Source: Lotus japonicus (Eukaryota; Streptophyta; Magnoliopsida; Fabales; Fabaceae). Taken from it: a stretch of DNA of 64,000 nucleotides. The notes under the pieces are model-generated. The model ran no database searches. It worked only from the letters and a program-made list of their open reading frames with translations, and had not been told where the DNA came from. This document shows positions 1-64,000 of this stretch, in pieces. The position numbers and the translations under genes were made by a program. Positions within the stretch are counted from its first letter, which is position 1. Every line of letters begins with the position of its first letter. The stretch spans positions 106,609,760-106,673,759 of the forward strand of contig NC_080041.1 in the NCBI RefSeq assembly GCF_012489685.1, given 5' to 3'.

Positions 1-2902
1 CCTCTTCCGGCAGTCAAGAATCTTGACTAGTTCTTTAAGACACCATTTAGAGTCTGCAAAGTTTTCCGACAAAACAACAATTGCAAACCTTGATTCTTCA
101 ATGGCTTCAAGAAGTTTCTCAATTGGGGCTCCACCCTCCAATGCTTCATTATCTTTGAAGGTCTCAAATCCCTCTTTGCATAAAGCATCATAGAGATGAT
201 TTGTGAAAGTCTCCCGAGTATCCTTTCCTCTAAAACTGATAAAAATTTGGTAGCGGGCTGTTGAGTGGCTTAGACTGACTAATGATTCTTGCCACTTCTC
301 AATAGACTTATTTTTCAAGGAAAACGCCACGTCTTTAATTAAACCCGGTAAGCCATTGCATTTAAAAGCAACATCCTGTACCACTTTAAATAGATCAATC
401 TGGGAGTCAACGCCTGAAAGTTTTTGTAGCAGGGAAAAAGCTTCCTCATTAGATAAGGGCTCGAGAGGAATCAAATGATCACATCCCATCAAGATGCAGT
501 CTGTCTCATTACGTGCAGTCAAAAGGAACTTGTACTGTTTACTATTATAAGGAACACCTAATTCTTGCAGTTTAGACTTCGACGGAAAATTATCCAAGAT
601 AACAAGAGTAGTTCGATCCTTCCTTTCTAATGCCAAAATTATTTTCATTATTCTCGCACCATCATTGTCATCTTTTTCAAACACGTTCAAGGAGCTAGCA
701 ATTCCCACTCGAATGCTCTTGATATCTTGATTCTCAGACACGGTGAGAAATACCACTCTACGAAAAATCTTTTCATACTCTTCTATCTCAGCTTTCAGTA
801 ATGCTGTTTTACCAGAGCCTCTCTTTCCATACAATCCAAGTACATAGCAATTATCATCTTTTAGTCCCTTTATAATTTTCTGTGAAGCCACTTTTGTGGA
901 GTTGAAATAATACCCAAAGTTTCCGGAAGGAAAGGATTGTAAACTTGAACTAGGAGTTGGTAATGCAATCTGATCATGGCAAGTATCATGTTGTACTTGT
1001 GCCTCCAAGTGTTGATATGGACTATCTTTTGAAGAATTGTACTTCTCCCCCTCCTGCACCATCTTCTCCAAGGCTTTTTTGGCATCGACCTTCTTCTTGT
1101 GCTCCTCATCCTCGACCTTGTACTTCTCCGCCTCCTGCACCATCTTCTCAATCTCCTCTTTCGAGAGTCTCCCCTCGTCATTTGTAATAGTGATATTGTT
1201 TTTCTCACCAGTAGTCTCATCTTCAGCAGAGACCTTCAGGATACCATTCTCATCAATGACAAAGCAAACATTGATCTGAGGAACACCCCTTGGAGCAGGA
1301 AGAATGCCACAAAGCTCAAATTTACCTAACAAGTTGTTGTCGCTGCTCCTTGTTCTCTCACCCTCGTACACCTTGATCAACACACCAGGCTGGTTGTCTG
1401 AGTTGGTTGAGAAAACCTGCTCCTTCTTGAATGGGATTGGACAGTTCCTTGGAATCAGGACAGTCATGACACCACCAGCAGTTTCCACACCAAGTGAAAG
1501 GGGAATGACATCCACCAACACAAGATCCTTAACCTTCTCATGACTCTCATGACTCAAGATAGCAGCCTGAATAGCAGCTCCATAAGCAACAGCCTCATCT
1601 GGGTTGATGCTCTTGCAGAGCTCCTTCCCGTTGAAGAAATCCTGCAACAGCTGCTGCACTTTTGGGATCCTAGTAGACCCACCAACAAGAACAACATCAT
1701 GGACACTGCTCTTGTCCATCCTAGCATCCTTCAAACACTTGTCAACTGGCTCCATGCACTTCGTGAAGAGGTCCATGTTGAGCTCTTCAAACTTTTCACG
1801 AGTGATATCAGTGTATAAGTCAACACCTTCATACAACGAGTCAATCTCAATGGTGGTCTGTACAGTGGATGAGAGAGTCCTCTTTGCCCTTTCACATGCG
1901 GTCCTCAACCTTCTTAAAGCCCTCGGGTTCCCACTAATGTCCTTCTCGTGCTTCCTCTTGAACTCCTCAACAAAATTGTTCACCATCCTGTTATCAAAGT
2001 CCTCACCTCCAAGATGCGAGTCACCCGCAGTGGAATTAACTTCAAAGACACCATCTTCAATGGTTAAAAGAGAGACATCAAAAGTACCACCACCAAGGTC
2101 AAAAATCAACACATTGATCTCATCATCACCGGTGTCACTCTTGTCAAGGCCATACGCAATGGCAGCCGCTGTAGGTTCATTAAGTATACGCATGACATTG
2201 AGGCCTGCAATGACACCAGCATCCTTGGTGGCCCGGCGCTGGGAGTCATTAAAATACGCCGGGACAGTAACAACAGCATTCTTCACAGCAAAACCAAGAT
2301 AAGCCTCAGCAATCTCACGCATCTTGCTAAGGACCATGGAGGAAATCTCCTCAGCTGTGAACTTCTTCTCCTCATTCTTGTAGCTAACAACAATCATAGG
2401 CTTGTCGGCTGAACCAGCAATAACCTCGAATGGCCATAGCTTGATGTCACTCTGAACTGAATCATCAGAGAAACTCCTTCCAATCAAACGCTTAGCATCT
2501 ACAACCACATATTCAATTCAATTCAATTCAACTAACCAATAACTCCATCACACAACTACTTACTGCATAATGTTAACAGATTCATACATTCATTCAAACA
2601 GACATTTCGTCGAACAATTCGAGTGCATTATCAAAACAAGCAAAATGTGAAGCTAAAACAGAGGAAGGGGATGATGCTATACCGAAGACAGTATTGGTGG
2701 GGTTTCTGGTGACCTGGCTCTTGGCGGCATCACCGATTAAGCGTTCGGAATGAGTGAAAGCGACGTAAGAAGGGGTGGTACGGTTGCCCTGGTCGTTGGC
2801 GATGATTTGGACGGCGTCGTGCTGCCACACTCCGACGCAGGAGTAGGTGGTGCCGAGGTCGATTCCGATGATAATAGGACGCTTTGCTTTACCGGCGGCC
2901 AT
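1..2902 (-). CDS. Hsp70-NB-ARC-TIR fusion gene, copy 1 (3' end beyond window)
   Basis: Exon 1 is 2683-2902 (start MAAGKAKRP, then [14 protein letters not shown], the Hsp70 phosphate loop). A 184-bp GT-AG intron splits the Asp codon before AKRLIGR, the usual HSC70 intron position. Exon 2 runs from 2498 to the window edge with no stop over 832 codons. In order it encodes the Hsp70 ATPase domain ([24 protein letters not shown]), the interdomain linker ([11 protein letters not shown]), the beta substrate-binding domain, a stub of the helical lid, an NB-ARC module ([31 protein letters not shown]) and most of a TIR ([20 protein letters not shown]). The lid stub ([16 protein letters not shown]), absent from the other copies, is flanked by two near-identical EKMVQE(A/G)EKY units. 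Lid remainder and EEVD are missing. The TIR end and exon 3 lie left of base 1. Intact where visible. Biochemical role is inferred from the families only. Confidence 0.9.
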
Positions 2903-3727: not shown

Positions 3728-3965
3728 CTGCTTTCTGGCGATTAAGAATCATGACAAGTTCTTTATGAGACTATTTAGAGTTTGCCAAGTTTTCAAACAA
3801 ACAAAAGTTGCTAATTAACCTTGATTCTTCAAGGGCTCCAAGAAGTTTCTCAAGTGGGGTTCCGTCTTCCAATGATTGATCGATCAACTTTGAAGACCTG
3901 GAATCCCTCATTACGCAGAGCATCATATAGATAGATGCTTTGTGAAAGTTTGACTGTTGTGTTGG
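3728..3965 (-). pseudogene. TIR-domain relic of a fifth fusion copy
   Basis: This block aligns base by base with the TIR segment of copy 1 (bases ~5-230): the regions for KILDCR, LKELV, the SRFAIV stretch, KLLEAIEES, the BB-loop region and DALC are all recognisable. It carries several small indels (for example an extra GATC in the BB-loop part and an inserted AATT) that destroy every reading frame. No Hsp70 or NB-ARC sequence accompanies it. To the right it ends abruptly at a LINE-like sequence. It is best read as the leftover of another array member. Confidence 0.75.
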
Positions 3966-6608: not shown

Positions 6609-9600
6609 CTAGTTCATATACATGCTTTGTATATGCAAACGATGTCTGTGATCACAGGCAAATTTGACAATCTTTTCAATAAATTGATCTCTGGTCCTGA
6701 AAAGGTATATAATATTTTGTCAATTTATTATAACCCAAGTGATGCCTGTTACATGCTGCCCATTTTATAAAACGTATATACAGTGGCGGAACTTCAACAA
6801 AATTACTGGGGGAGCTCAAATAAATTTAAATATATAAAATTCGAAATATTTTGTTAACAGCAAAAAAGTATTTCATAGTGAATCAAAAGTCATTTAGTCT
6901 AAGTATATATGTATTTTAATTTATATATTGATATCATATACTAAAATCCAAATCACATAAAGTGTTGTTAATCATAATGAAATAACTAAATTTCCTTACA
7001 TAAAGTAGCATAATCAAAGTCCAAGTTCAGCATAATCAATGTCAATTGTATTGAGAAAGTACTAAAATATTAGTATTTTATTTTTTTTATAAACTTGTTG
7101 GGTAAGTCCCCTACTTTTTCTCCTTTTTCTGGTACTATGAGTCTATGACGTTTTTTTTAAAGAATTTGGTACTTGAGTCTGTAACATTGACATAAGTTTT
7201 ATTAGTTTTAAATTTTTTTTTATGTGTATTAAATTACTCTCACAATTTTAACCCGTGTGTGGTGAAAGTTAAATATATTTTCAAAAATGAGGCTCCTAAG
7301 GATCAAAGACTCAACATATAATTTAACAACAACTTTTTACCACTGCAACTTACACTTGTTAGATATTATATATATGATTTTATAGACTATAATATATATC
7401 CTATATACTAAAAAAAAATTGGCCAAATCTGTGGGGGAGCTACAGCTCCCCTGTGTCAACCTTAAGGTCCGCCACTGCGTGTATAAAACTAAGTTTGATT
7501 AGATTTCACAGAAATATATGCTACCACGTACACAAGATACCAAACTGCATTGAAGCTAGATAATTGTAAAACTTTGATTTTTAAGTTAATTAAGAAGTAA
7601 AACTTGAACATCACACTTGCAATATAGCATGTCCGACAAAATTCTTTGTTAACAAAGTCGCGTTAAATAAATGAAAATATAAAAATTAGAGAAGTGCTTG
7701 CAACTCTTTTTTTTGAAACACTCTCTACAACAATCTTTTATTAATTGGTTGAAATTTAAGTGAATTTTATATTATTAGTGGACCATCCACAAAATTTAAT
7801 CAATGAATATATGAGAGTACCGAAGAAAATGTTAAAAAAGTGTTATTAGCCTTTTCCATATAAAAAATGGGTTAGTATTAAACAGCTTGTGTCAGTAGAT
7901 GAGACACCATTTATGAAATTTAACTAAGAATGATGTATTTGGGTAATAGATTTTAATGGATTAATGTATTAATTCATAGGATTTTTTTTCTAAAAAAAGT
8001 GTGAAATCCAGTTTTTTTTTTTAAATCAAAAGAATATACTACAAATTTATCCACAAACAAAAAGACTATAGAATATTAAAATTCCCCTGCAGCTACTTTT
8101 ACCAGATAATTTTAGTGCAAAATAAATTATTTCAAATTCTACATTATTACTTAAAATTTAAAAAATCTACCATCACTACCAGAAAACAGTCTAGTAGCGA
8201 CCATCGATTTATCCTCTCTCTCACTAACACCTTCATTTTAAAATATTTCTTCAAACAGGTTTTATAAATGATACTAATAAAAAGTCATAAATTTTATTTT
8301 TCTAAATTTTAAAATAACTAATCCAAAAATAAACTGATATTGTAAACTATAAATTAGTTTCAAAAAAACCTGCATTTCACCCTATATATTTTTTTGGAAA
8401 GTGCATTTCACCCTATATTAATTACCTAAAATCTAGTGTTTGGGTCGATAAGGTAATTTTTGAGAAAAAAAATTAAATCGTTGTCATATGAAATATAATA
8501 TTGAAGGACTAAATTTAATGAAAGAGAAATTTAAAATAACTAAATTTGATGAAAGAGAGTTTTTATAGACTAAAAATCATGTGAAAAATATACGTGGACA
8601 CCTATATGTAATTAGGATTGTCACGTGGGTTGATGATTGGATAAAAAATATTTCAAAAGTAAGATTATACTGATCAAAAAATTCCAAGAACTAAAAATTA
8701 TGAACTATTTTTATATGGACCGTTTTACATTATGGTGTGTAAGTAAGGGACCAAATACATATTTAATCCAAATTTTAAAATCACTCGTTAGAATTATTTT
8801 ATATATCCAAACAAAGTATTTCATAATTTAAAATTCCTTCAACAGACACCTAACCTAGTTAAAATTAACTACATAATCACATGCTAAATTTTAAGTTATA
8901 AAACAATTCATTCAACCGATAAATTATTCGTGAAGTCTAATTAAAAGTGTATCATGTATTCATGTGCATGGTCTTTTTTCTGTTTTTTTTAAGCTGCTTT
9001 ATACCCAAAAAAAAAAGTATATAAAAGTATACTACTTACCAATCGTGAGGCTTTTCAAATCCCGTCAGCGCACAAACATCATACAAAGCCTTCTTCCATG
9101 CTTTGATTGCATATAAATCTTTTCCATTATTTTCATGTTTGGCCATAGCATCAGCATAACTGTTTCTTACATGCCTTACGTCTGTGGGTGGCACTTCGTA
9201 GAAGATTGGCAAAACTAGCTGGTTTTTCCCCTCTTTATCCTTGCACTCAAGAATCTTGATAAGTTCTTTAAGACACCATTCAGAGTCTGCATAGTTTTTA
9301 GATAAAATGACAATTGCAAACCTTGATTCTTCAATATCATCAAGAAGTTTCTCGATTGGGACCCCACCCTCCAATGACTCATCATCTTTGAAGGTCGTGA
9401 ACCCCTCCTGGCACAAAGCATAATGGAGGTGCTTTGTAAAAACATGTCGAGTGTCACTTCCTCTAAAACTGATAAAAACCTGGTAGCGGGCGGTTGAGTC
9501 GTGGCTTAAACTAACTAATGATTCTTCCCACTTCTTTAAGGACTTCTTTTTCAAGGAAGTCGCCACCTCTTCAATAAATCCAGGTAAACCATTGCATTTG

Positions 9601-12252
9601 AATGCAACTTCTTGTGCCACTTCAAATAGAGCAGATTGAGAATTAACACCAGAAAGTTTCCGTAGTAGTGTGAAAGCTTCATCATTAGATAAGGGATCCA
9701 GAGAAATTGAATGGTCACATCCCATGCAGATGCAGTCTGTCTCGTCACGTGTGGTCAAAAGGAATTTGTATTGTTTGTTGTTATAAGGAATACCTAATTC
9801 TTGCAGTTTAGACTTTGCCGGAAAATTATCCAAGATGACCAGAGTAGTTCTATCCTTCCTTTCTAATGCCAAAATTATTTTCATGATTCTTACAGCATCA
9901 GTGTCATGTTTTTCAAACACGTTCAATGTCCTTGCAAATTCCTCTTGAATGCTCTTCGTGTCTTGATTCTCGGACACAGGGAGAAATATAACTTTATGAA
10001 AAATAGTTTCATACTCTTCTATCTTATCTTTGAGTAACGTTGTTTTACCAGAGCCCCTCTTTCCATGCAATCCAATTACGTTGAAATTATCATCTTTTAG
10101 CGCCTCTATAAGTTTCTCTGAAGCCTCTTTTGTATTGTTGAAATAATACCCAAAGGTACCAGAAGGAAAAGACTGTAAATTTGGGGTTGGTAATATAGGG
10201 CAAGTATTATGTTCTGCTTGTGCCTCCAAGCGTGAATATGGAGTATCTTTTCTAGAATTGTACTTCTCTGCTTCCAGTGCCATCTTCTCAATCTCCTCGT
10301 TCGAGAGTCTGCTCTTGTCATTTGTAATAGTGATCTCATTCTTTTTTCCTGTTGTCTTATCCTCAGCAGTGACATTCATGATACCATTGATATCAATACG
10401 AAGGCCAACAGTGATCCGAGGAACACCCTTTGGAGCAGGAGGAATGCCAGAAAGCATGAACTCACCCAACAAGTAGTTGTCCCTGGTCCTAGATCTTTCA
10501 CCCTGGTACACCTTGATCAACACAGCAGGCTGATTGTCTGAGGATGTAGAGAAAACCTGTTCATCCTTGACCGAGATCGTAGTGTTCCTTTGAATCAGGA
10601 CAGTCATGACACCACCACAAGTTTCCACACCAAGTGAAAGGGGAGTGACATCCACCAACAGAAGATCCTTAACCTTCTCATTACCCTCACCACTCAATTT
10701 AGCAGCTTGAACAGTAGCTCCATAAGCAACAGCCTCGTCAGGGTTGATGCTCTTGCAGAGCTCCTTACCGTTGAAGAAAACCTGCAACAATGACTGCACC
10801 TTGGGGATCCTAGTAGACCCACCAACAAGAACAACATCATCTATGTCACTCTTGTGTATCTTAGCATCACACAAACAGTTCTCAACAAGCTCCATACACT
10901 TCATAAAGAGGTCCATATTGAGCTTTTCAAACATGTCACGAGTGATTGTGGTGTAGAAGTCAACACCTTCACACAATGAGTCAATCTCAATGGTGGTTTG
11001 TTCGGTGGATGAGATAGTTCTCTTTGCCTTTTCACATGCGTTCCTCAACCTTCTTAAAGCCTTCGGGTTCCCACTAATGTCCTTATTGTGCTTTCTCTTG
11101 AACTCCTCAACAAACTTGTTGACCATCCTGTTATCAAAGTCTTCACCTCCAAGATGGGTGTCTCCGCCAGTTGCCATAACTTCAAAGATACTGTTTTGAT
11201 CAATGTTGAGAAGAGAGACATCAAAAGTACCACCACCAAGGTCAAAAACCAACACATTATTCTCATCGTTAGTGGTGGTTCTCGTGTCAAGGCCATAGGC
11301 AAGGGCAGCAGCGGTAGGTTCGTTGATGATGCGCATGACATGAAGTCCCGCAATGATACATGCGTCCTTCGTGGCCTGGCGCTGAGAGTCATTGAAGTAT
11401 GCTGGGACAGTTACAACAACTTTCTTCACAGTGGAACCGAGGTAAGCCTCAGCGATCTTACGCATCTTCATGAGGACCATGGAGGAAATCTCCTCTGCAG
11501 TGAACTGCTTCTTGTGATGCATGTAGCTGACAACAATCATGGGCTTGTCGCCGGGACCAGCAATGACCTTGAATGGCCATAGCTTCATGTCACTCTGAAC
11601 GGAAGCATCAGAGAATCTCCTTCCAATCAAACGCTTCACATCTACAGCCACAAATTAATTCAATTAACCAATAAGCAAAACTGTCTCATTAATTAAGCAT
11701 AAATATGATACATCCTGTTCCATCAAAATAAAGAGAACAAGAACTCCAACACACAACTACTGCATAATATTAATATATTCATAGATGAAAACACACGAAC
11801 AACGTTTATGCAAAGCGATTTATGCAAAGTGTAATGATTTCATGAAAGCTAAGTTGAATAGAATAAGTTAATTAATTAGTAACAACGTATGTACTTGTAA
11901 GTTGCAAATAACAGATTAATTATGATATAGTATGATCGCAAGTAAGTGACGTAACAACGCTAAAAGTCTATGAAAATTTGAAATGAAGTAGTGGAACTTT
12001 AAACATATATTAACATGAAATAAGGAGGGGTATGCTACCGAAGACGCTGTTGGTGGGGTTCCTAGTGACCTGGTTCTTGGCAGCATCACCGACCAAGAGC
12101 TCGTAATCAGTGAAACCGACGTAAGAGGGGGTGGTCCGGTTGCCATGGTCATTATGGATGATTTTGACACTGTCATACTGCCATACTCCGACGCAGGAGT
12201 AGGTGGTGCCGAGGTCAATTCCAATAGCAGGACCCTCTCCTTCTCCAGCCAT
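6609..12252 (-). CDS. Hsp70-NB-ARC-TIR fusion gene, copy 2 (complete)
   Basis: Three exons: 12039-12252, 9040-11641 and 6609-6696, all with GT-AG introns and matching phases, giving 967 residues. Residues 1-395 are an HSC70-like ATPase domain ([35 protein letters not shown] near 178, [10 protein letters not shown] at 205). Residues ~396-520 are linker and beta substrate-binding domain; about 522-590 are a lid stub and spacer. Residues ~590-785 are NB-ARC: P-loop [11 protein letters not shown] at 598, kinase-2 LVILDNF at 672, RNBS-B FLLTTRD at 698, GLPG at 756. There is no MHD motif and no LRR. Residues ~790-930 are TIR ([13 protein letters not shown] at 794; WCLKEL at 860 with the NADase-type Glu at 864). 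Exon 3 adds [12 protein letters not shown]...QSMYMN and the stop. The start is the HSC70-like MAGEGEGP; an in-frame ATG at 12330 would add 26 residues. Expected substrates (ATP, NAD) and an immune role are inferred from the families. Confidence 0.9.
6781..7477. mobile_element. hAT non-autonomous element in intron 2 of copy 2
   Basis: Left end CAGTGGCGGAAC and right end GGTCCGCCACTG are short inverted repeats of the hAT type. The flanks CGTATATA (6773-6780) and CGTGTATA (7478-7485) match at 7 of 8 bases, consistent with an 8-bp target duplication. The interior is AT-rich and non-coding. It lies 84 bp beyond exon 3 inside the host intron. Confidence 0.85.
7486..9039. other. remainder of intron 2 of copy 2
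   Basis: AT-rich non-coding DNA between the hAT insertion and the 5' splice site at 9039/9038 (G|GTAAGT in gene orientation). No coding similarity or complete transposon was recognised. Short open frames here have no family resemblance. Confidence 0.5.
11642..12038 (-). other. intron 1 of copy 2
   Basis: A 397-bp intron bounded by GTAGCATA at the donor and GGCTGTAG at the acceptor. It splits an Asp codon (G|AT) at the position of the single intron of plant HSC70 genes. The corresponding introns are 184 bp in copy 1 and 565 bp in copy 3. Confidence 0.85.
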
Positions 12253-13954: not shown

Positions 13955-16524
13955 CTAAAGTTGTGCTCGTCGTTGTTTCATAGAGTAAAAATCATCAATT
14001 ATCATATCGCTGGTATATTTTTCAGCAATTTCCTTTTCAATATAAACAACCATGTAATCAGTGAGAAAATCATCTTCCATCTTGTTGCGCAACCTTGTTT
14101 TTATAACTTTCATAGCTGAAAAAGCACGTTCAGTGGTTGCTGTTGATACAGGAAGAGTCAAAACAAGTCGCAACAATCTATCAAGTAAAGGATAGACAAT
14201 TGATTTTTCACTCTCAACTAACTTTTGACACAATTCACCAATAGTGGACAAATTCTGAAAGTTGACATCTTTGATCACATCAAATTCATAATGTTGCAAT
14301 TCATATGGTAACTGAATCTTTTCTTGGCCAGAAAAATCCGAAGGATAGAATTTCTCAACAAGACTGCAAATATGCTCAACATTAAATGACTTGAATGAAT
14401 CCTTAGGATCTAAAGCTGTGCTCAATTTAAGAAGTTCAGTTGCTTGCTCACTGAACCTGCTATTCAATTTTTTCAACTGATAATCGATGACAACATTAAA
14501 TACATCAATACGGTAATGGTGCTCTATTGTCACTTTATCCTTTTGACGACGAGATCGAATTATGTCAGAGAAAGAAGAGCTCATGTCTGGAACTTCAATA
14601 GATCGACTATCACAAAAAGATCTAACATTTTGTAGAAGAGAATCCCAACCAAAATCCCTTAACTCTCGAATTAATGATTTTGTGGTAAACACCAAACAAA
14701 TAGCATTCAAGATGTCTTGAGTTTTTTTTTGTAAAGCTTGACAAAGTTTGTCACAGATTCCCGTAAGTTCTTTCATCAAGTGTAAAATGAAAACAAATTC
14801 AAATGACATTAATGATTTGAAAGCATAAGTGGCATCACCTCGTTGAGAATAAGTAGATCCTTCAATGGCCAAGTCTTCAAGAACCGTAGTTGTTGCATTA
14901 TACAATCGTAAAAGATGGGTTATTGAATTTAAGTGGGAACTCCATCTAGTGTCACCGGGTCTTTGTAGTGTGCTAATTTGATTTGCCCCCCTTCCTGTTT
15001 CAATCTCATCATTTGCAACTAAATGTGAAATTTCATTTGCATAAGCAGCTTGCAACTCATCATTGCGTTTACAAGAAGAACCTACAACATTGACAATCAT
15101 ATTCAAGTTTTGATAAAAAGCATGAACATCAACTACTTCTTTAGCCGAAGCAACGAGAGCAAGTTGTAACTGATGAGCAAAACAATGTACATAATATGCA
15201 TAAGGACATTCTTTAAGGATCAAAGCTTGTAAACCATTCCACTCTCCACGCATATTACTAGCCCCATCATATCCTTGGCCCCGAACACTTTTAATGTTGA
15301 GATTATGGTGAGATAATATAGAACAAATTCCTTCCTTAAGAGTATGTGAAGTAGTATCTCTCACATGTATCATATCCAAGAAACGCTCCTTAACATATCC
15401 ATTCTTGTCAACAAATCTAATGACAAGAGCCATTTGCTCCCTCTTAGATTCATCACGAGCTTCATCAACAAGTAAACAAAATTTTGCATCACCAATCTCT
15501 TTACGAATATCACTTTGCACCTTCCTTGCAAAAACATGTAAGATTTCTTTTTGAATAGTGGGTGATGTGTACTTTGCATTTTGAGGGGCATTTTCCAAGA
15601 CAACTTCATCTACTTCTCTATTATAAGAAGCCAAAAGTTTTATCATCTCTATAAAATTTCCCCGATTTTTAGATCTCACACTTTCATCATGCCCTCTAAA
15701 AGCACAAGCTTGAAATGTCATCCATTTAACGGCATCCACAGAAGCTTTAAGACGCATGCGATTACATGAAATTTGTTGTGAAGTTTGCTTTGATAGAATT
15801 TATCAATATGACAATACTGATTTTTGAAATCTTCACAACATTTAAGAGCAACATTATGAGATGAATTAGGACCGTCTCCTACATGAGTTAAAAAAGAACA
15901 ATCTTTTCCACTATTTACTTTTCTCCAATTTCTAAATCCTTTTGAAGTGAAAGGACTTGATTTTTTAGAAAATAAATAGCAAGGAAAGCAATAACAAGCA
16001 TCCATTTCAGGCGAGTACTCTAACCAAGGAAAAGTTTCAAACCAACGAGCTTGAAATCGACGATGTTGATCTTGAAAAACTGTAAGAGAGAATAATAATA
16101 GTTAATTACTAAAAATATAAATAATAATAGATGTTCATATGATATTAATAAAAAGAAAAATGGATAATGTAGAGTACATACCAGAAAACGGATATTCATC
16201 CATCAAAAATTGATACGGTCCAAACTTTATGTATGCTCTTCTAATTTCATCTTGTTGATTAACAAGATAATCCAAAATTCTTGGACGCTTTCCAGGATCA
16301 CGAATCAAAGCATCAATATTGATTCTTTCTTGTTCAATCCTCAAAGCTTTTGAAGGAGGTGGTTGGACAAGTTGCTCTACGGTTGATTGTGTTGGTTGTC
16401 CAACTTCAACGATATTTGAAACATTAATATCTATTGAAGTTGGTGAAACAAGTGAAGGTTGTGCTTGTTCATCATCTCTCTCTTTTCTCTTAAAGAAAAA
16501 GTCAATAGTTTTCTTCTTCTTCAT
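13955..16524 (-). pseudogene. hAT transposase (ZMYM1/TTF-type), one frame break
   Basis: Exon 1 is 16182-16524 (MKKKKTIDFFFKRKERDDE, a typical start). A 102-bp GT-AG intron follows, then exon 2 to 13955. Exon 2 opens with the TTF-type zinc-finger region (RRFQARWFETFPWLEYS, then CYCFPCYLF). Near 15785 the frame shifts by one position between KFYQS and QTSQQISCNRMRLK. After that a 600-residue frame is open: FRGHDES, CLLVDEARDE and GQGYDGASNMRG (acidic active-site region), CFAHQLQLAL, and the C-terminal dimerisation region ATTERAFSAMKVIKTRLR. With one frameshift as the only lesion seen, this copy is probably inactive but young. Confidence 0.85.
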
Positions 16525-18341: not shown

Positions 18342-20844
18342 TCAAAAGCTAACAACATTCAGCATAGCTCTCATGTTCCTGAACCTCTCAGTTTTCAAAC
18401 CCTTAGTCATAATATCTGCCACTTGCAAATCAGTTCCACAGTGCTTCAAGCTGATCTTTCCTTTTGTTACTTGATCACGTAGGAAATGGTATTTAGTCTC
18501 AATGTGTTTACTACGTCCATGGGAAACTGGATTCTTAGCCAAGTCGATAGCAGATTTATTATCCACTTGCAATTCCACAACTTCACCAATATCCACATTC
18601 AATTCACTCAACAATGAGGATAGCCACAGTGCTTGACAGGCTGCACTACAAGCAGCTATGTACTCAGCTTCACAGGTTGAAAGAGCAACCACAGATTGCT
18701 TCCTTGAGCTCCAGGAAATAGGGGCACCGGACAAGAGAAAGACATACCCTGATGTACTTCTTCTATCCACCTTATCTCCACACCAATCCGAGTCTGAAAA
18801 TGCTACAAGTTGTAGCTTAACCTTCCCTTCTTGATGTGGAAATAAAATGCCATAGGTCAATGTCCCTTTCAAGTATCTCAAAATCCTTTTCGCAGCAGCT
18901 AAGTGTGATTGCTTTGGCTGAGCCATGAATCTACTAACAAGCCCTACTCCATAAGAAATTTCTGGTCTGCTATGACAAATGAATCTTAGACAACCCACAA
19001 GCTGTCTAAACAAAGTAGCATCAACTGAAGCTTCATTCTCTGAAAACTCCAGTTTCAAGTTACCTTCAACTGGCACTGTGACTGGATTACAATCAATCAT
19101 GTTGAACCTCTTTAGAATTTCAGAAACATACTTCTTTTGATGCATAACTACTCCTTTCTTGGTTTGAAGAAACTCAATACCAAGAAAATATGCTAATTCA
19201 CCCAGATCAGACATCTCAAATTCTGATTTCAGATTCAGTTTCAACTTCTCTATCTCAGTTTCATTACTTCCAGTGATTACCAAATCATCAACATATAAAC
19301 ACAATAGTAAGACATCAGAGTTACTAATTACCTTGATGTAAACACCATGCTCTACTGTGCACTTCCTGAAGCCAGTTTGAGTGAGGAAAGAATCAATCCT
19401 TTTGTTCCATGCCCTTGGAGCTTGCTTTAAGCCATAAAGGGCTTTCCTCAATCTCAAAGCCTTTCCATCACTATCAGCAACCTCAAAACCAGGAGGTTGA
19501 GAAACATAGACCTCTTCTTCAAGAGGACCATTTAAAAACGCTGATTTCACATCTAACTGCCAAAGTTTCCATCTATGCCAACTAGCCAAAGACACAATTA
19601 ATCTTACTGTTTCAAATCTGGCAACTGGAGCAAATACTTCACTGTAATCGAACCCTTCTCTTTGCATGAAACCCTTGGCAACTAGCCTTGCTTTATGCTT
19701 GGCTATACTTCCATCTGGTTTCAGTTTAATTCTAAAAACCCATTTTACAGCAATTGGAACTTTCCCTTGAGGCAGAGGTACTAGCTCCCATGTTTTGTTC
19801 CTTTCAATTGCTCTAAGTTCTTCTTTCATGGCTTCACACCAAGTGTTATCCTTTATTGCTTCATGGAAAGTCACAGGCTCAGCTTCAGCTGAAAGAGCCA
19901 AGTGAATCAATTCTCCATCATCAGTGATTGCACTATCTGGAAAAACATTATAATCATTGAGTCTTGAAGGCATGCTTCTATTCCTTGTTGACCTTCTTTC
20001 AGCTGCAACTGGAACTGAATTGTCAGCAGTTACATGCTCATTTACTTGCTGTGTTGTAGTATTATCTGAATCAAGAAGCAGCTTGAGGACTGGCTCACTT
20101 TCTTTGTTGAAATTCTTCCAAGTGCTAGCCTCATCAAAGTAGACATCCCTGCTGTAGACTACTTGCTTGGTTTCAGGATTCAAGAGTTTGTAGGAACCTG
20201 TTGGATGATATCCAACAAAAACCAACTGCTCACTCTTGTCGTCAAGCTTTCTCCTCCTTTGATCAGGCACATGTCGGTAACAAACTGAACCAAACACTCT
20301 CAAGTGTTTCACTGAAGGTCTCCTTCCAGTCCATGCTTCTTCTGGTACTTTTCCTTCAAGCTTGAGTGTAGGACATCTATTCAGCACATAGGTGGCAGTA
20401 ACAACAGCCTCTCCCCAGAAACTGTTTGGCAACCCCTTACTTTTTAGCATACTTCTCACCATATTCATTATGGTCCTGTTTCTTCTTTCCACAACACCAT
20501 TGTGTTGAGGTGTATAGGGAGCCGTCACCTCATGAGCTATTCCATTCTCAGTACAAAATCTTTCAAATTCAGTGGAAGTAAATTCACCACCTCCATCAGT
20601 TCTAAGCACTAAGCTGTTTTCCAGATTGCTTTTCAGTCAGAACTTTGAAGTTCTTAAAATTGTAGAACACTTCACTTTTAGCCTTGATCAAATAAATCCA
20701 CATTTTCCTACTGAATTCATCCACAAACAGTACAAAATACTTGTTTCCACCAATTGAGGGAACCTCAAATGGTCCACAGACATCAGCATAGACAACATGC
20801 AACAAGTCACTTCCTGAAGCCAGTTTGAGTGAGGAAAGAATCAA
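18342..20844 (-). pseudogene. Copia pol: integrase, reverse transcriptase, RNase H
   Basis: The frame 18342-20609 is open for 755 codons: integrase C-terminal core ([24 protein letters not shown]), reverse transcriptase ([23 protein letters not shown] catalytic motif) and RNase H ([25 protein letters not shown]). The upstream integrase part (20602-20844: YADVCGPFEVPS, FVDEFSRKMWIYLIK) is in another frame. A small frameshift therefore lies near 20605, between EKQSGKQ and LRTDGGG. The protein would not be made intact. Confidence 0.9.
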
Positions 20845-36503: not shown

Positions 36504-37058
36504 TGAGTATCTAATTAGGACCTTTAGTTATTTTTTCCCATCATAAACAATTAATTATGTCATAAAACAAGCTCAAATAAATTCTTCCAAATAGAGTACT
36601 TAAAAAGAAATAAAAAACTCGCGTTAAAAAAAACTTTTCTCCAATGAGTAAAATAATATTGAATAAATGTGTAAATAATTACAACCAAAATCTATATATG
36701 ACACTAACCATTTACAACAAACTCTGTCTCGTGCCACACTCGCTGTAAGAGAAGCAAGAGTCTTTCATTCTAGTTTATATACATGTTTTGTATATGCAAA
36801 CGATGTCTGTTATTATGGACAAATGTTATGATCTTTCCAATAAATTGATCTGTGGTCCTGTAAAAATGTAACACCATATCATTTATGATTTACACAAAGA
36901 TTACTTATTAAAAGTTTTTTTTTTAACTTTTATAAAACATTTCTCCCATCTTTAAAATTTGATTTGATTTATATAAACAAATAAAAAATATTTGACTCTT
37001 TTCTGATGTATAAAAAAAAAAAGTATTTGACTTTAGTTCATAAATCGTTTTAAATAAT

Positions 37059-38821: not shown

Positions 38822-41800
38822 TAAAATTTAATACTTTTTTGACGGGATACAATATGAAAATTCCATATAACAAACATTTAAGATGAGTTTAGAAAATTAA
38901 AGTGATAATTTGAATATAAAAATGAGATGATTAATCATTAATTTTAGTAAAAGCTTGTGCCCTAAGGAAGGTGTGGGTAAAAGAGGAATTTAAATGATTA
39001 ATGTAAAATACACGGTTCAGGAGTTAAAATAAAGAATATTAAATATATCAACTATTTTTCTTGATAATTTTTTAACAAATGTTTTTTCAAATTTCAACAT
39101 TATTAGAAGAAATTTCAAATAACATTTTTACTTGAGACAAATAAAAAATTAGTTTTTTTTTTTAATTTATGAGATGGCTTTTTCAAAAATTTAGTAATAT
39201 AACTAAAAGTAATTGAAAGTTTACTACGTACCCTTTGTAAGGCTCTCCTTTTAGGTAGGAAATATCAATCAAAGCTTGTGCCCATTCTTGTACCATCTGA
39301 GAATCTTTTCCTAACTCTTTTTCATGTTCGCCCATGGCTTCACCATACCTCCCTTTTAGATGCCTAATGTCGGTTGGTTCCACCTCATAAAAAATTGGCA
39401 AAACCAATTGTTTCTTCCTCTTCCGGCAGTCAAGAATTCTGACAAGTTCTTTAAGACACCACTTAGAGTCTGCAAAGTTTTCAGACAAAATAACAATTGC
39501 AAACCTTGATTCTTCGATGGCTTTGAGAAGATCCTCGATTGGGGCTCCATCCTCCAATGATTGATCATCTTTAAACGTCTTGAATCCCTCCTTACACAAA
39601 GCATCATAGAGATGCTGTGTGAAAATATCACGCGTATCTTTTCCTCTAAAACTGATAAAAATTTGGTATTCGGCCGTTGAGTGGCTTAGACTAACTAATG
39701 ATTCTTCCCACTTCCCAATGGATTTCTTTTTTAAGGAATATGCCACATCTTTAATTAAACCAGGTGAGCCATTGCATTTAAAAGCAACTTCCCGAGCCAC
39801 TTTAAATAAATCAAACTGGGAGTTGACATCTGAAAGTTTTTGTAGCATGGCCAAAGCTTCATCATTAGTTAAGGGATCTAGCAAAATCAAACGGTCACAT
39901 CCCATGGCCTCGCAGTCTCCCTTGTGACGTGTGGTCAAAAGAACCTTGCACCGTTTTCTATTATAAAGAATCCCCAATTCTTTTGGTTTAGACTTTGTTG
40001 GAAAATCATCCAAGATAAAGAGAGTAGTGCCATCCTTCCTGTCCAATTCAGTAATTATTTTCACTATTCTCATGAAATCACTGTCATCTCTTTCAAAATG
40101 CACATTCAACGAGCTAGCAATTCCCTCTAGGATGCTCTTGATATCTTGGTTAGTGGACACGGTGGGAAATATAACTCAAGGAAAATTCTTTTCATACTCT
40201 TCCATCTCAGCTCGCACTAAGGTTGTTTTACCAGAGCCCCTCTTTCCATATAATCCAATTACACAGCAATTATCATCTTTTAGGGCCTCTATAATTTTCT
40301 GTGAAGCCTTTTTTGTAGAGTTGAAATAAGACCCAAAGTTTCCGGAAGGGAAGGACTGTAAACTTGGAGTTGGTACTATATTCTGATCACAGGTATCATG
40401 TTGTAATTGTGCCTCCAAGTGTTGATCCTGCACCATCTTCGCAATCTCCTTCTGCCTAGTACTCATATCCTCAGCAATGACATTCATGATACCGTTGGCA
40501 TCAATGTCAAAGGAAAAATTGATCCAAGGAACGCCCTTTGGAGCAGGAGGAATTCCAGAAAACTCGAATTGACCCAACAAGTTGTTATCTCTGGTCCTGG
40601 AACTCTTACCTTCGTATAACTGGATCATCATACCAGACTGGTTGTCTGAGGAGGTTGAGAAAACCTGCTCCTTCTTGGTTGGGATTGTGGTGTTCCTTTG
40701 AATGAGTACAGTCATGACACCACCGGCAGTTTCCAAACCAACTGAAAATGGAGTAACATCCAACAACAAAAGACCCTGAACCATCTCATTACCCTCACCG
40801 CTCAAGATAGCGGCCTGTACTGCAGCTCCATATGCAACAGCCTCATCAGGGTTGATGCTCTTGCAGAGCTCCTTCCCTCTGAAGAAATCCTGCAACAATG
40901 ACTGTACTTTGGGGATTCTGGTAGAGCCACCAACAAGAACAACATCATGGACACTTCTCTTGTTCATCTTGGCATCCTTCAAACACTTCTCAACAGGCTC
41001 GATGCACTTCCTGAAGAGGTCCATGTTGAGCTCCTCAAACTTGGCACGCGTGATTGTGGTGTAGAAGTCAACACCTTCATACAAAGAGTCAATCGCAATG
41101 GTGGTCTGTGAGGTGGATGAGAGAGTCCTCTTTGCATTTTCACATGCGGTCCTCAACCTTCTTAAAGCCCTCGGGTTCCCACTAATGTCCGTCTTGTGCT
41201 TCCTCTTGAACTCCTGAACAAAATGGTACACCATTCTTTTATCAAAGTCTTCACCTCCAAGATGGGTGTCACCGCGCGGCAGTGGCCTTAACTTCAAAGA
41301 TACCCTCTTCAATGGTTAGAAGAGATACATCAAAAGTACCACCACCAAGGTCAAAAATCAACACGTTCTTCTCACCGTAACTGGTTGCCTTCTTGTCAAG
41401 GCCATAGGCAATGGCAGCAGCGGTGGGTTCATTGATGATATGCATGACATTAAGGCCCGCAATTAGACCAGCATCCTTCGTGGCCTGGCGCTGGGAGTTG
41501 TTGAAGTATGTTGGGACAGTGACAACGGCATTCTTTACGGTGGAACAGAGATAAGCATCGGCGATCTTCCGCATCTTCCATAGGACCATGGAGGAAATCT
41601 CCTCAGCAGCGAACTGCTTCTCCTCGTTCTTGTAGTTGACACCAATCATGGGCTTGTCGCCAGGACCAGCAATAACTTTGAATGGCCATAGCTTCAGGTC
41701 ACTCTGAACGGAAGCATCAGAGAATTTCCTTCCAATCAAACGCTTCGCATCTACAACCACAAATTCAATTAACCAATAAGCAAACTACCTCAACATTTAA

Positions 41801-42567
41801 CGACAGCAAAGTCAATTCCAACCTACCATATCCTGTTCCATCGAACAAATAACTCCAGCACACAACTACTGCATAATATTAATAGATTCATAGATTCAAA
41901 CACAGATTCAGACTAACAACACGAATTCTGTGTAGAAAAACAATAGTGCGGTAAGAAAAAATTCAAATCAAGAAGCTAAAACAAGAGTGAAAAGAACCGC
42001 ATGAAAATCCAAACTCCAAATTAGATACTTAATAACAATCTAGGAGCTAGTAAAAACAACAAGGAACAATAACGTGCAACTTCTGCAAATTATAAGGCAA
42101 AGCAATTTTGGAGAGCAAAACAACCAAAGTCATGAAGCTAAACAAAAATTGAATAGAATCAGTTATTTAGTAACAACCTATGTACTAGACTACTAGTAAA
42201 AATTGCAAATAACAGTTTACGATGTAGTATCATAAGTAAGTGACATAACATAGCTAGAAGTCTAAGAAAAACTAACATTTAAAACATAAACATTAAATAA
42301 GGATGGGGATGCTACTGAAGACAGTGTTGATGGGGTTCCTGGTGACCTGGTACTTAGCTGCATCACCGATGAAGCGCTCACAATCGGTGAAACCGACGTA
42401 AGAGGGGGTAGTCAGGTTGCCCTGGTCGTTGGGGATGATTTCGACACGGTCGTTCTGCCACACTCCAACACAGGAGTAGGTGGTGCCAAGGTCGATTCCA
42501 ATAGCAGGACCCTCTCCTTTTCCGGCCATCAATATCTGAGAATGCAGCGGCACAGAGAGAAAGAAGA

Positions 42568-59998: not shown

Positions 59999-62900
59999 CT
60001 AGTTCACATACATGCTTTGTATATGCAAGCGATGTCTGTTATTCCGGGCAAATTTTATGATCTTTCCAATAAATTGATCCCTTGTCCTGCAGTAAAATAA
60101 ATTTGTTCAAACCCAGCAAGAAATAATACCTGAACCACACACAATAGATCACAAAATTCCTTTCAATAAAGTCACATTTAAAATAATAACTAGAATATAA
60201 AAATGAGGTAATTAATCATTAATTTGAGCAAAAAGTTTGTGCTATAAGCAGTGGCGGAACTAGAAAAAATAATATGAGAGGGCCAAAATAAAAATTTAAG
60301 CGTAAATTAACATTTTTAATTAGCAATAAATACATATATGCACAGAAAATAATAATTACACAAATTCATATACTTATTGAAAGTTTTCAAATTTTTTATT
60401 CTCGGATTATTTTTATATATAATTATATTATTTTTATTTATCATTTTTAAAAGTGTTTTTATTAAAAAAATATTATTTTACTCTTAATATTAGTTTTTGA
60501 GAGAAATTTATATATTAATGTTATCTCTAAGACTATTAGTTTTCCTCTTGTAATAATAAAAAGTTATTCTAAAACCATCAAAATTTTAACACTCATTTTA
60601 ATTTGTAAAGAAAAAAATATATCATTGTGATTGTTTTGATACTTGCACTAATTAATAGTATATAATATAATAGTATATAATTGTTCATAGAACTTTTGGG
60701 AGGGCGAACCGGCCCTCCTCTGCCCCAACGTGGCTCCGCCACTAGCTATAAGGATGGTTTGGGTAAAAAAGAAATTTGAATATCAGGAGCTGTATAAATG
60801 ACTCATGGTAAAGTTTGAGTTAAATAATTTAGAGTTTAATTTATATGCACTTACATCGTCAACTAATTAAATTTTAAGTATGTGAGAAAATCTCTCTTTT
60901 TATTTAATTTCATTAATTGACGTGACACATTCTTGAAATCTGATTGGTTGACGGTGTAAAAACACTTTACACCATTTGGTGCATTATCTTTTTTCTCAAT
61001 AATTCATGGTTCTAGGTGGACCAATCACATTTAAGATAAGTGAATTGTAATTTTATATTTTTTAATTAATTTTTTTATTAATCCAGTTCAGGCATTTCAA
61101 AAAAAAAAAACACACGGTTCAGCAATAATTTTTTTTAAATATATCAACTATTTTGCTCGATAGTTGTTTAACACATAATAAAAGATTTCAAATGTCGATA
61201 TTATTAGAAGAAATTTCAAATTTTAAATTTGACAATTTATTTTCAAATAAAACTTTTTAAGTAAGACATATTCAAAATTTAATTTTTAAAATTTAAAGAT
61301 AAATTTTTGAAAAATTTGGTAATATGGAATTTAACTAAAAGTAATTCAAAGTAACCAAACAAACATTTATAGTACGTTAAATATCTTTTTATGGTAAATT
61401 AAAAAAATGTTAAGAATAAAAATGTGCAAATTTAACTTTTTAAAACATTTAGTAATATGCCTTTAAAAAAAAAGCATTTAGTAATATGGAATTTAACTAA
61501 AAGTAGTTGAAAGTTTAGTACATACCCTTCATAAGGCTCTCCTTTCAAGTAGGAAATATCACTCAAAGCTTGTGTCCATTCCAGCACCGTCTTAGAATCT
61601 TTTCCTAACTCTTTTCCATGCTCAGCCATAGCTTCACCATACCTCCCTTTTAGATGCCTCACATCAGTTGGTTCCACTTCATAAAAAATAGGCAAAACCA
61701 ATTGTTTCTTTCTCTTCCGACAATCAAGAATCTTGACAAGTTCTTTAAGACACCATTTTGAGTCTGCAAAGTTTTGAGACAAAACAATAATCGCAAACCT
61801 TGATTCTTCAATGGCTTCAAGAAGTTCCTCAATTGGGGCTCCATCCTCCAATGATTTATCATCTTTGAAGGTCTCAAATCCCTCCTTACACAAAGCATCA
61901 TAGAGATACTTGGTGAAAATCTCTCGAGTATCCTTTCCTCGAAAACTGATAAAAATTTGGTAGCGAGCCTTTGAGTGGCTTAGACTAACTAATGATTCTT
62001 CCCACTTCCCAATGGATTTCTTCTTTAAGGAAGACGCCACATCTTTAATTAAACCAGGTAAGCCATTACATGTAAGAGCAACTTCTTGTACCATATAGAA
62101 TAGCTCAGACCAAGAGTCAACACCTGAAAGTTTTTGTAGCAGGGCCAAAGCTTCATCATGAGATAAGGTCTCCAGAAGAATCAAATGGTCACAACCCATG
62201 AAGATGCAGTCTATCTCGTCACGTGCGGTCAAAAGAACCTTAAGTCGTTTGCTATTGTAAGGAATACCTAATTCTTGTGGTTTAGACTTTGTTGGAAAAT
62301 CATCCAAGATAATAAGAGTAGTTCCATGTTTCCTTTCCAATCCTGAATTTATTTTCATTGCTCTCACGACATCACCGTCATCTCTTTCGAAATGCACATT
62401 CAAAGAGCTGGCAATTCCCTCTTGAATGCTCTTGATATCTTGGTTATCAGACACGGTGGGAAATATAACCCTATGAAAAATCTTTTCATACTCATTTATC
62501 TGAGCTTTCACTAGTGATGTTTTACCAGAGCTCTTCTTTCCATGCAATCCAATTATAGAGCAATTATCATCTTTTAGTGCTTCTATAAGTTTTTGTGAAG
62601 CCTCTTTCGTAGAGTTGAAATAATACCCAAAGGTTCCAGAAGGGAAGGACTGTAAACTTAAAATTGTGGTAGGTCTTGTAATTTGATGGCAAGTGTTATG
62701 TTCTACTTGTGGTTGATCTAGAGCATGCTTTGTAGAATTGTATTTCTCGGCCTCCTGCGCCATCTTCTCGATATCCCCCTTCGAGAGCCTGCCCCTGTCA
62801 TTTGTAATAGTGATCTCGTTCTTCTGCCCAGTAGTTTTTTCCTCAGCAGAGACACTCAAAATACCATTGAAATCAATGCTAAAGCAAACATGGATCTGAG

Positions 62901-64000
62901 GAACACCCTTTGGAGCAAGAGTGATGCCAGAAAGCTCGAACTTACCCAACAAGTTGTTGTCCCTGGTCCTAGAATAATCACCCTCGTAAACCTGGATCAA
63001 CACTCCAGGTTGGTTGTCCGAGTGGGTTGAGAAAACCATCTCCTTCTTTGTCGCAATCGTAGTGTTCCTTGAAATAAGGACAGTCATGACCCCACCAGCA
63101 GTTTCCAAACCTAGTGAAAAGGGAGTGACATCAACCAAAAGAAGTTCTCGAGTCTTCTCATTCCCCAAACTAGTCATGATAGCAGCCTGAACTGCAGCTC
63201 CATAGGCAATAGCCTCGTCAGGATTGATGCTCTTGCAAAGCTCCTTCCCGTTAAAGAAATCCTGCAATAGTGATTGCACTTTTGGGATCCGGGTAGACCC
63301 ACCAACAAGAACAACATGATGGACTCTACTCTTGTCCATCTTAGCATCCCTCAAACACTTCTCAATAGGCACCATGCACTTCATAAAGAGGACCATGTTG
63401 AGCTCCTCAAACCTGTCACGAGTGATTGTGGTGTACAAGTCATCGCCTTCATACAAGGAGTCAATCTCAATGGTGGTTTGTGTAGTGGATGAGAGCGTTC
63501 TTTTTGCCCTTTCACAAGCGGTTCTCAACCTCCTTAGAGCCCTTGGATTCCCACTAATATCCTTCTTGTGCTCCCGCTTGAACTCATGAACAAAATGGTT
63601 AACCATTCTATTATCAAAGTCTTCACCTCCAAGATGGGTGTCACCGGCAGTGGCCTTAACTTCAAAGATACCATCTTCAATGGTTAGAAGAGAGACATCA
63701 AAAGTACCACCACCAAGGTCAAAAATTAACACGTTCTCCTCCCCACCAACACGGGCTGTCTTCTTGTTAAGGCCATAGGCGAGTGCAGCAGCAGTGGGCT
63801 CATTGATGATACGGATGATGTTAAGGCCGGCGATGGCACCGGCGTCCTTTGTGGCTTGGCGTTGAGAGTCATTGAAGTATGCTGGGACAGTGACAACAGC
63901 GTTCTTCACAGTGGAGCGGAGGTAAGCCTCGGCGATCTTACGCATCTTCATGAGGACTATGGAGGAGATTTCCTCCGCGGTGAACTGCTTCTCCTGGCTC
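59999..64000 (-). CDS. Hsp70-NB-ARC-TIR fusion gene, copy 4 (5' end beyond window)
   Basis: Exon 2 runs from the right window edge to 61526 without a stop and ends GAAGG|GTATGT. Exon 3 is 59999-60086, acceptor CTGCAG, giving [17 protein letters not shown] to QSMYVN and stop. The visible part starts in the Hsp70 ATPase domain ([39 protein letters not shown]), then linker [11 protein letters not shown], beta domain, NB-ARC ([31 protein letters not shown]) and TIR ([20 protein letters not shown]). The P-loop is GKKSSGKT, one Gly replaced by Ser, which may weaken nucleotide binding. The lid stub seen in copy 1 is absent. Exon 1 lies to the right of the window. TIR and NB-ARC are closest to copy 3. 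Intact where visible. Confidence 0.9.
60249..60744. mobile_element. hAT non-autonomous element in intron 2 of copy 4
   Basis: Starts CAGTGGCGGAACTAG and ends GGCTCCGCCACTA. It is flanked by a perfect 8-bp duplication GCTATAAG (60241-60248 and 60745-60752). AT-rich, non-coding interior. A separate insertion from the related one in copy 2. Confidence 0.9.

Follow-up and report, generated by a model that had tools for sequence, protein, structure and literature searches.

Can a plant genome place a chaperone and the body of an immune receptor in one polypeptide, and what would such a protein be for? The question is raised by a stretch of Lotus japonicus DNA (contig NC_080041.1, positions 106,609,760 to 106,673,759; the window, meaning this whole stretch of 64 kb), in which a gene coding for an Hsp70 followed by an NB-ARC module and a TIR domain is present in four tandem copies, all on the minus strand and one of them (copy 3) broken. 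Copy 2 is an Hsp70–NB-ARC–TIR fusion gene. It contains an open reading frame (ORF) of 872 codons without a stop (11654-9036, minus strand), and splicing of the three exons listed in Table 1, across two introns that both start with GT and end with AG, yields exactly 967 residues and a stop codon. The product matches, from the N- to the C-terminus, the Pfam families HSP70 (PF00012, residues 4-483, E = 3.4e-193), NB-ARC (PF00931, residues 511-720, E = 3.1e-29), and TIR (PF01582, residues 724-866, E = 2.6e-39), each far above the cut-off. Both the Hsp70/NB-ARC and the NB-ARC/TIR joints lie within exon 2, and therefore neither splicing nor the choice of a gene model makes the fusion.

The 939-aa L. 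japonicus database protein P0002 (P numbers denote the proteins compared here) is 100% identical to the copy 2 product over its length and terminates at a TAA just within intron 2. The first intron lies at what we take to be the usual site in plant Hsc70 genes; a literature search on that site gave nothing useful. A first-pass annotation, made from the letters of the DNA alone, had given the same 967-residue product and exon coordinates, which our splicing reproduced, and the domain search that it had proposed returned the three families in the order it had read. Its statement that a single 2.6-kb exon encodes all the domains holds for the domain order and for both joints but not for ATPase residues 1-71, which are encoded in exon 1, and although it described copy 2, it missed the three further copies in the window. 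Exon 1 was located for copies 1-3 and the exon 3 tail with its stop for copies 2-4; judging by its reading frame, copy 3 is a probable pseudogene. No known RNA family was matched in the window at the gathering threshold.

Table 1. Fusion copies and neighboring features in the 64-kb window, in window coordinates.
Feature	Position	Strand	Remarks
Copy 1 exon 1 (Hsp70 start)	2683..2902	-	100% to P0012
Copy 1 exon 2	1..2498	-	Hsp70-NB-ARC-TIR; window edge cuts the TIR; full protein is P0012
Copy 2 exon 1	12039..12252	-	Hsp70 ATPase residues 1-71 and first base of the next codon; identical to P0002 1-71
Copy 2 exon 2	9040..11641	-	Remaining ATPase, beta domain, lid stub, NB-ARC (NB and ARC1), TIR; single open frame; P0001
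Copy 2 exon 3	6609..6696	-	28-residue TIR-distal tail and stop
Copy 3 exon 1	42316..42529	-	Sequence match; copy 3 spans 42529-36770
Copy 3 exon 2	39232..41750	-	Hsp70-NB-ARC-TIR; frameshift near 41270, in-frame stop 40178-40176
Copy 3 exon 3-like tail with stop	36770..36857	-	Sequence match
Copy 4 exon 2	61526..63999	-	Hsp70-NB-ARC-TIR; 5' part outside the window; full protein is P0020 (967 aa)
Copy 4 exon 3 tail and stop	59999..60086	-	Copy 4 extends from beyond 63999 to 59999
Isolated TIR remnant	3732..3933	-	In two frames; kin to fusion TIRs, 44-65% identity in two pieces; family D6
hAT-type transposase ORF	13955..15799	-	Immediately upstream of copy 2; DUF4371 and hAT dimerisation Pfam matches
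Copia-type retrotransposon polyprotein fragment	18342..20636	-	Between copies 2 and 3; RVT_2, integrase

To establish which parts of each domain are kept, we compared the Hsp70 residues of 22 fusion models, four of which are without a TIR. ATPase positions and residue roles follow what we take to be bovine Hsc70 numbering and function. The catalytic residues E175, D199, T204, and D206 are present in all 22 models, as are R171 and N174, presumably contacts for J-proteins; D10 and T13 are kept in 17 of 18 (P0024, which has another N-terminus, differs) and K71 in 18 of 18, four further models being without that part. The peptide-pocket positions are mostly kept as well (F434 and V444 in 22/22, P0085 numbering), with A412 changed to Val in 16 of the 22. 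The interdomain linker DLLLLDV is invariant in 12 canonical Hsp70s, whereas 10 of 22 fusions have Thr in place of its second Leu; copy 2 reads DLLLVDV. The stretch with this linker (mean entropy 1.13 in fusions versus 0.05 in canonical proteins) and positions 421-435 of the beta domain (1.21 versus 0.03) are the two most variable 15-residue stretches of the Hsp70 part. The lid breaks off within its first part (P0020 matches HSP70A only as far as residue 540 of 651), and the copy 2 product ends in SMYMN, without an EEVD tail. Compared with the Hsp70 family, the fusion has the actin-like ATPase with its catalytic residues, lacks the complete alpha-helical lid and EEVD, and possesses a beta-type substrate-binding domain by sequence, the same region having low confidence in the predicted model.

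The NB-ARC part carries the P-loop GKT in 20 of 20 fusions. ARC2 with its MHD motif is absent, as indicated by the distance between the GLP motif and the TIR and by the predicted model, in which ARC1 helices are followed by the TIR, and no leucine-rich repeat (LRR) family was matched in the Pfam scan of the fusion products from the window. The TIR motif WCLKEL, which includes a catalytic-type Glu, is found in 19 of 20 fusions (the other model stops before it) and in 17 of 19 proteins of the CC-NB-ARC-TIR family described below (CC, coiled coil). The fusion TIR has the fold and the catalytic-type Glu of plant TIR NADases, in agreement with the conserved Glu read by the first-pass annotation.

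The fusion is not confined to this locus. Three protein searches, in each of which 120 matches were listed, out of 7992, 483, and 938, respectively, provided the comparison set. Among the best 120 of 7992 matches, 19 proteins combine HSP70, NB-ARC, and TIR, and the second search adds P0122 and P0124, giving at least 21 three-domain protein clusters, three of which are window copies (P0002, P0012, and P0020). At least five more entries (P0048, P0051, P0055, P0058, and P0178, the last a partial entry from a contig of 1785 bases) contain HSP70 and NB-ARC without a TIR. Among the matches listed, the fusion entries with a named source are all from L. japonicus, Trifolium pratense, T. repens, or T. 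subterraneum, and no Medicago fusion model is among the best 120 of 7992, 120 of 483, or 120 of 938 matches. Within Hologalegina, Lotus is a member of the robinioid clade and Trifolium of the inverted-repeat-lacking clade (IRL), whereas Abrus falls outside Hologalegina. The survey of related genomes suggested at first pass supports a real gene family shared by Lotus and Trifolium. Chance as an explanation is ruled out by the E-values and by the same architecture in four copies and other species. Several Trifolium models of the Hsp70-NB-ARC or NB-ARC-TIR type (P0051, P0055, P0058, P0123, and P0019) run on into FtsZ domains, probably by extension into a neighboring gene. The L. japonicus protein P0013 (1102 residues) consists of two Hsp70 units and the first part of an NB-ARC, and may be a decayed fusion beside an intact Hsp70.

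Kin of the NB-ARC-TIR body were sought with the corresponding part of an Abrus protein, and this search recovered a wider legume family of proteins mostly about 500-570 residues long (best 120 of 938 matches), represented among the matches listed in Abrus, Lotus, Medicago, Melilotus, Trifolium, Vicia, Lathyrus, and Cicer. Among ten relatives analyzed with Pfam, NB-ARC precedes TIR in six (P0125, P0126, P0129, P0130, P0133, and P0137), NB pieces flank the TIR on both sides in P0142, and P0140, P0143, and P0198 have the ordinary order with the TIR first; by domain coordinates, the NB stands immediately before the TIR in the other family members that entered the trees. The N-termini are mostly coiled-coil-like, as judged by eye, and P0126 has a long repetitive insert at its front. 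Between the GLP motif and the start of the TIR lie 38-40 residues in 20/20 fusions and in 18/19 CC-NB-ARC-TIR proteins (the remaining one is unmeasured). The first-pass annotation had proposed that the Hsp70 replaces the sensor part (LRR) of a receptor; this does not hold, since the parent family is already without ARC2 and LRR, and the Hsp70 occupies the place of the CC. Three observations concern the wider family. The Lotus protein P0129 carries two MSP domains in place of the CC, which may reflect either another exchange of the N-terminal part or a gene model merged from two genes; three CC-NB-ARC-TIR-like proteins of Melilotus officinalis (P0219, P0225, and P0238) bear the label “nodulation protein” in a public source, as a label only; and legume TIR-TIR proteins of ~330-350 residues (P0277, P0284, P0290, P0298, and P0317) have their second TIR, and not the first, in the CC-NB-ARC-TIR clade.

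Phylogenetic analysis is consistent with a single origin of the fusion. In the Hsp70 tree (46 rows, omitting P0083_648, P0013_601, P0027_10, and P0090 as long or odd rows), the fusion Hsp70s form one clade with support 98/93; in the first, quick tree of 50 rows, the support was 83, with P0013_601 as sister. In the NB tree, the fusion NB-ARCs likewise form one clade (99/93), nested within the legume CC-NB-ARC-TIR family. The family, fusions included, combines an NB of the CNL type (coiled-coil NLR, where NLR stands for nucleotide-binding leucine-rich repeat receptor; CCG10-like) with a TIR of the TNL type (TIR-bearing NLR), the CNL-type NB references being few: P0279 supplies two units, and the others, P0127 and P0154, are Rosaceae proteins that themselves have N-terminal TIRs. 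The fusions thus belong to the NB clade (100/98) and the TIR clade of this family and share its fixed spacing, but not its N-terminal coiled coil. In the TIR tree, the CC-NB-ARC-TIR-like P0125 falls among the fusion TIRs, with exchange between neighbors as a possible cause; the fusion TIRs as one clade are not rejected (p-AU 0.106). The NB tree keeps 59 of 65 domain hits, leaving out P0002 and short pieces of P0013, P0134 (two), and P0318, and the second piece of P0293. The TIR tree keeps 66 of 74, leaving out P0002 and short pieces of P0024, P0028, P0137 (two), P0127, P0142, and P0149, and the TIR monophyly test used 65 rows, P0142 being additionally left out. P0002 was left out of every tree as a duplicate of P0001.

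As judged from domain content and trees, the fusion consists of a cytosolic Hsc70 that stops after the opening portion of its lid and is joined in one exon to an NB-ARC1-TIR body, in place of the CC. The Lotus copies are scattered in the Hsp70 tree, and a single Lotus clade is rejected (p-AU 0.002, in a test run after the first Hsp70 tree had been seen); since the copies are not one clade, the tree dates a single fusion event and one or more duplications to before the Lotus/Trifolium split. Among the three unbroken copies (copies 1 and 4 only with their parts within the window), which differ by 0.22-0.77 synonymous substitutions per site (dS), the Nei-Gojobori ratio of nonsynonymous to synonymous substitutions (dN/dS) is 0.17-0.31 in the ATPase domain, 0.43-0.65 in the beta domain, 0.32-0.78 in the linker from Hsp70 to NB-ARC, 0.27-0.35 in the NB-ARC, and 0.16-0.31 in the TIR (88 codons only where copy 1 is involved). 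The ratio is below 1 in every part, with the beta domain the least constrained of the domains. The fusion is old, has been duplicated, and has apparently been maintained by selection.

What the protein does is a matter of weighing. The reading that we favor, at a probability of roughly 0.5, is that of an NLR-derived TIR immune protein carrying an Hsp70 at its front as an integrated bait or sensor. It draws on three points taken together: cytosolic Hsp70 contributes to plant immunity and is a binding target of effectors that include HopI1 and Pi23226 (in the available text of PMC8982422), host-protein domains integrated into NLRs follow the same logic (in the available texts of PMC6032283 and PMC4759884), and the J-protein contacts are kept. 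We infer that the fusion is expressed, that its TIR cleaves NAD+, that NB-ARC1 helps in assembly, and that the Hsp70 does the sensing. Pathogen factors that engage cytosolic Hsp70 would be caught by the integrated Hsp70; this engagement would lead the NB-ARC1 parts to assemble and bring the C-terminal TIRs together for NAD+ cleavage, and the resulting small-molecule signals would act on EDS1-type complexes.

Several results weigh against this proposal. ARC2 and the MHD motif hold ordinary NLRs in the ADP-bound off state, and because both are absent from the fusion, it may not switch in the manner of an NLR. At the coarse level tested, selection is purifying and not diversifying, unlike a fast arms race on a bait, a point softened by the beta domain being the least constrained domain. 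The pieces of broken copy 3 have dN/dS of 0.18-0.45, and therefore a low ratio is no proof that each copy works today; either the damage is recent or the measure is coarse. Finally, no function of the CC-NB-ARC-TIR parent family or of any member is reported in the accessible parts of the literature covered.

A clearly less probable explanation is that the TIR is under direct control of the Hsp70, which would still work as a chaperone without its lid and would exert this control through its ATP cycle and peptide binding. An unfolded protein or a J-protein would shift the Hsp70 state and free or cluster the NB-ARC1-TIR part, so that proteotoxic stress would lead to NAD+ cleavage, and the Hsp70 would supply the off switch otherwise provided by ARC2 and LRR. 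The ATPase and peptide-pocket residues are largely kept in the fusion models while the lid, ARC2, and LRR are gone, losses that this explanation accounts for, and the NB-ARC stands where the lid is expected, behind a client-binding beta domain that is the least constrained domain. The loosened interdomain linker, however, should weaken the allostery required, although copy 2 keeps DLLLVDV, and the 1 kb upstream of copies 1-3 contains no perfect three-unit heat-shock element. Elements with one mismatch number one for copy 1, one for copy 3, and none for copy 2 (0.1-0.2 expected per pattern), and a heat-shock promoter inherited from the Hsp70 gene is not supported by these sequences. A specific form, in which the Hsp70 allosteric cycle is itself the switch of the NAD-cleaving TIR and activation comes from client or J-protein engagement and not from LRR ligand sensing, appears a shade more doubtful; if true, the protein-folding state would be wired directly, at the molecular level, to immune cell death.

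It is improbable that the Hsp70 is a built-in chaperone that acts in cis to fold or stabilize the NB-ARC-TIR tail attached to it, without any part in sensing. Its catalytic residues are kept, and the available texts of PMC8982422 and PMC6032283 connect cytosolic Hsp70 and SGT1 with NLR-type immunity, but the numerous CC-NB-ARC-TIR relatives (about 540 residues) do without an Hsp70, and the fusion has lost its EEVD tail and the greater part of the lid. To the same low degree we would credit a chance fusion that spread by tandem duplication and is drifting, the joined protein having no function under selection. The broken copy 3, the isolated TIR remnant, the several Trifolium models that are truncated or run into FtsZ sequence, and the Hsp70 tip branches (0.08-0.24 in Lotus fusions versus 0.004-0.095 in plant canonical rows) fit such a history, whereas the same joints occur in Lotus and Trifolium across their split, the catalytic residues of three domains are intact, and dN/dS in the domains is 0.16-0.65. 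That separate Hsp70 and NB-ARC-TIR genes were wrongly joined in assembly or annotation, as might be suspected of relatives that are database gene models (mostly automatic, judging by their names), is rejected as barely conceivable, because the DNA of the window shows this joint four times within an open exon, and entries of three named Trifolium species contain the fusion too.

The first-pass annotation knew of no described family with this order. The survey entry that bears on this claim is the InterPro identifier IPR013126, which we take to be the Hsp70 family. The NLR-set domains of T. pratense and Medicago truncatula already include it, by identifier only, in a legume NLR survey (PMC11734081), so that the claim stands as far as no description of the architecture was found in the open-licence literature, in main texts as opposed to supplementary NLR tables, but needs that qualification. 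For M. truncatula, the entry contrasts with the absence of a fusion model among the matches listed. The survey's NLR sets include LRR-only proteins; its available text does not describe the fusion or mention Lotus, and reports that, of all its NLR sets, only the one of T. pratense has the FtsZ C-terminal domain (PMC11734081). The main texts of two surveys of NLR architecture, as available (PMC4759884 and PMC11126693), do not mention Hsp70. With an old, natural, multi-copy fusion present in a model legume, the question of whether plants guard Hsp70 can be tested directly. The fusion further demonstrates that an NB-ARC and a TIR from two NLR classes (CNL-type NB and TNL-type TIR) can come together in reversed order, and that a chaperone can take over the N-terminal position of an NB-ARC-TIR protein.

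Set beside known systems, the fusion resembles each in part. It shares the catalytic residues of cytosolic Hsp70/Hsc70 (bovine Hsc70, Chlamydomonas HSP70A), and the exons of the window copies are 77-85% identical to the plant Hsp70 P0085; unlike cytosolic Hsp70, it has a cut lid, no EEVD, a linker loosened in many members, and an attached NB-ARC-TIR. With the CC-NB-ARC-TIR proteins (the Medicago “TIR-like domain protein TSDC” P0133, Melilotus P0219, Abrus P0130, and Lotus P0126), it shares the NB clade, the TIR clade, and the GLP-to-TIR spacing, and the final 11 residues of copy 2 exon 3 are common to P0126, whereas the coiled-coil-like CNL N-terminus of these proteins (by eye) is replaced by Hsp70. 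Plant TIR-NB (TN) and TIR-only proteins form a class that, like the fusion, has a TIR with the Glu and, in the TN proteins, an NB, but no LRR; unlike them, the fusion places the NB before the TIR, and this NB is of CNL descent. Like NLRs with integrated domains (RRS1-WRKY and RGA5-HMA, in the available text of PMC6032283), it carries a foreign host-protein domain on an NB-ARC protein, Hsp70 being a known effector target; unlike them, it has neither LRR nor ARC2, its TIR is C-terminal, and effector binding is putative. The fusion is of a known kind, an NLR-derived protein with an integrated domain, but both the order of its domains and the partner integrated are unusual.

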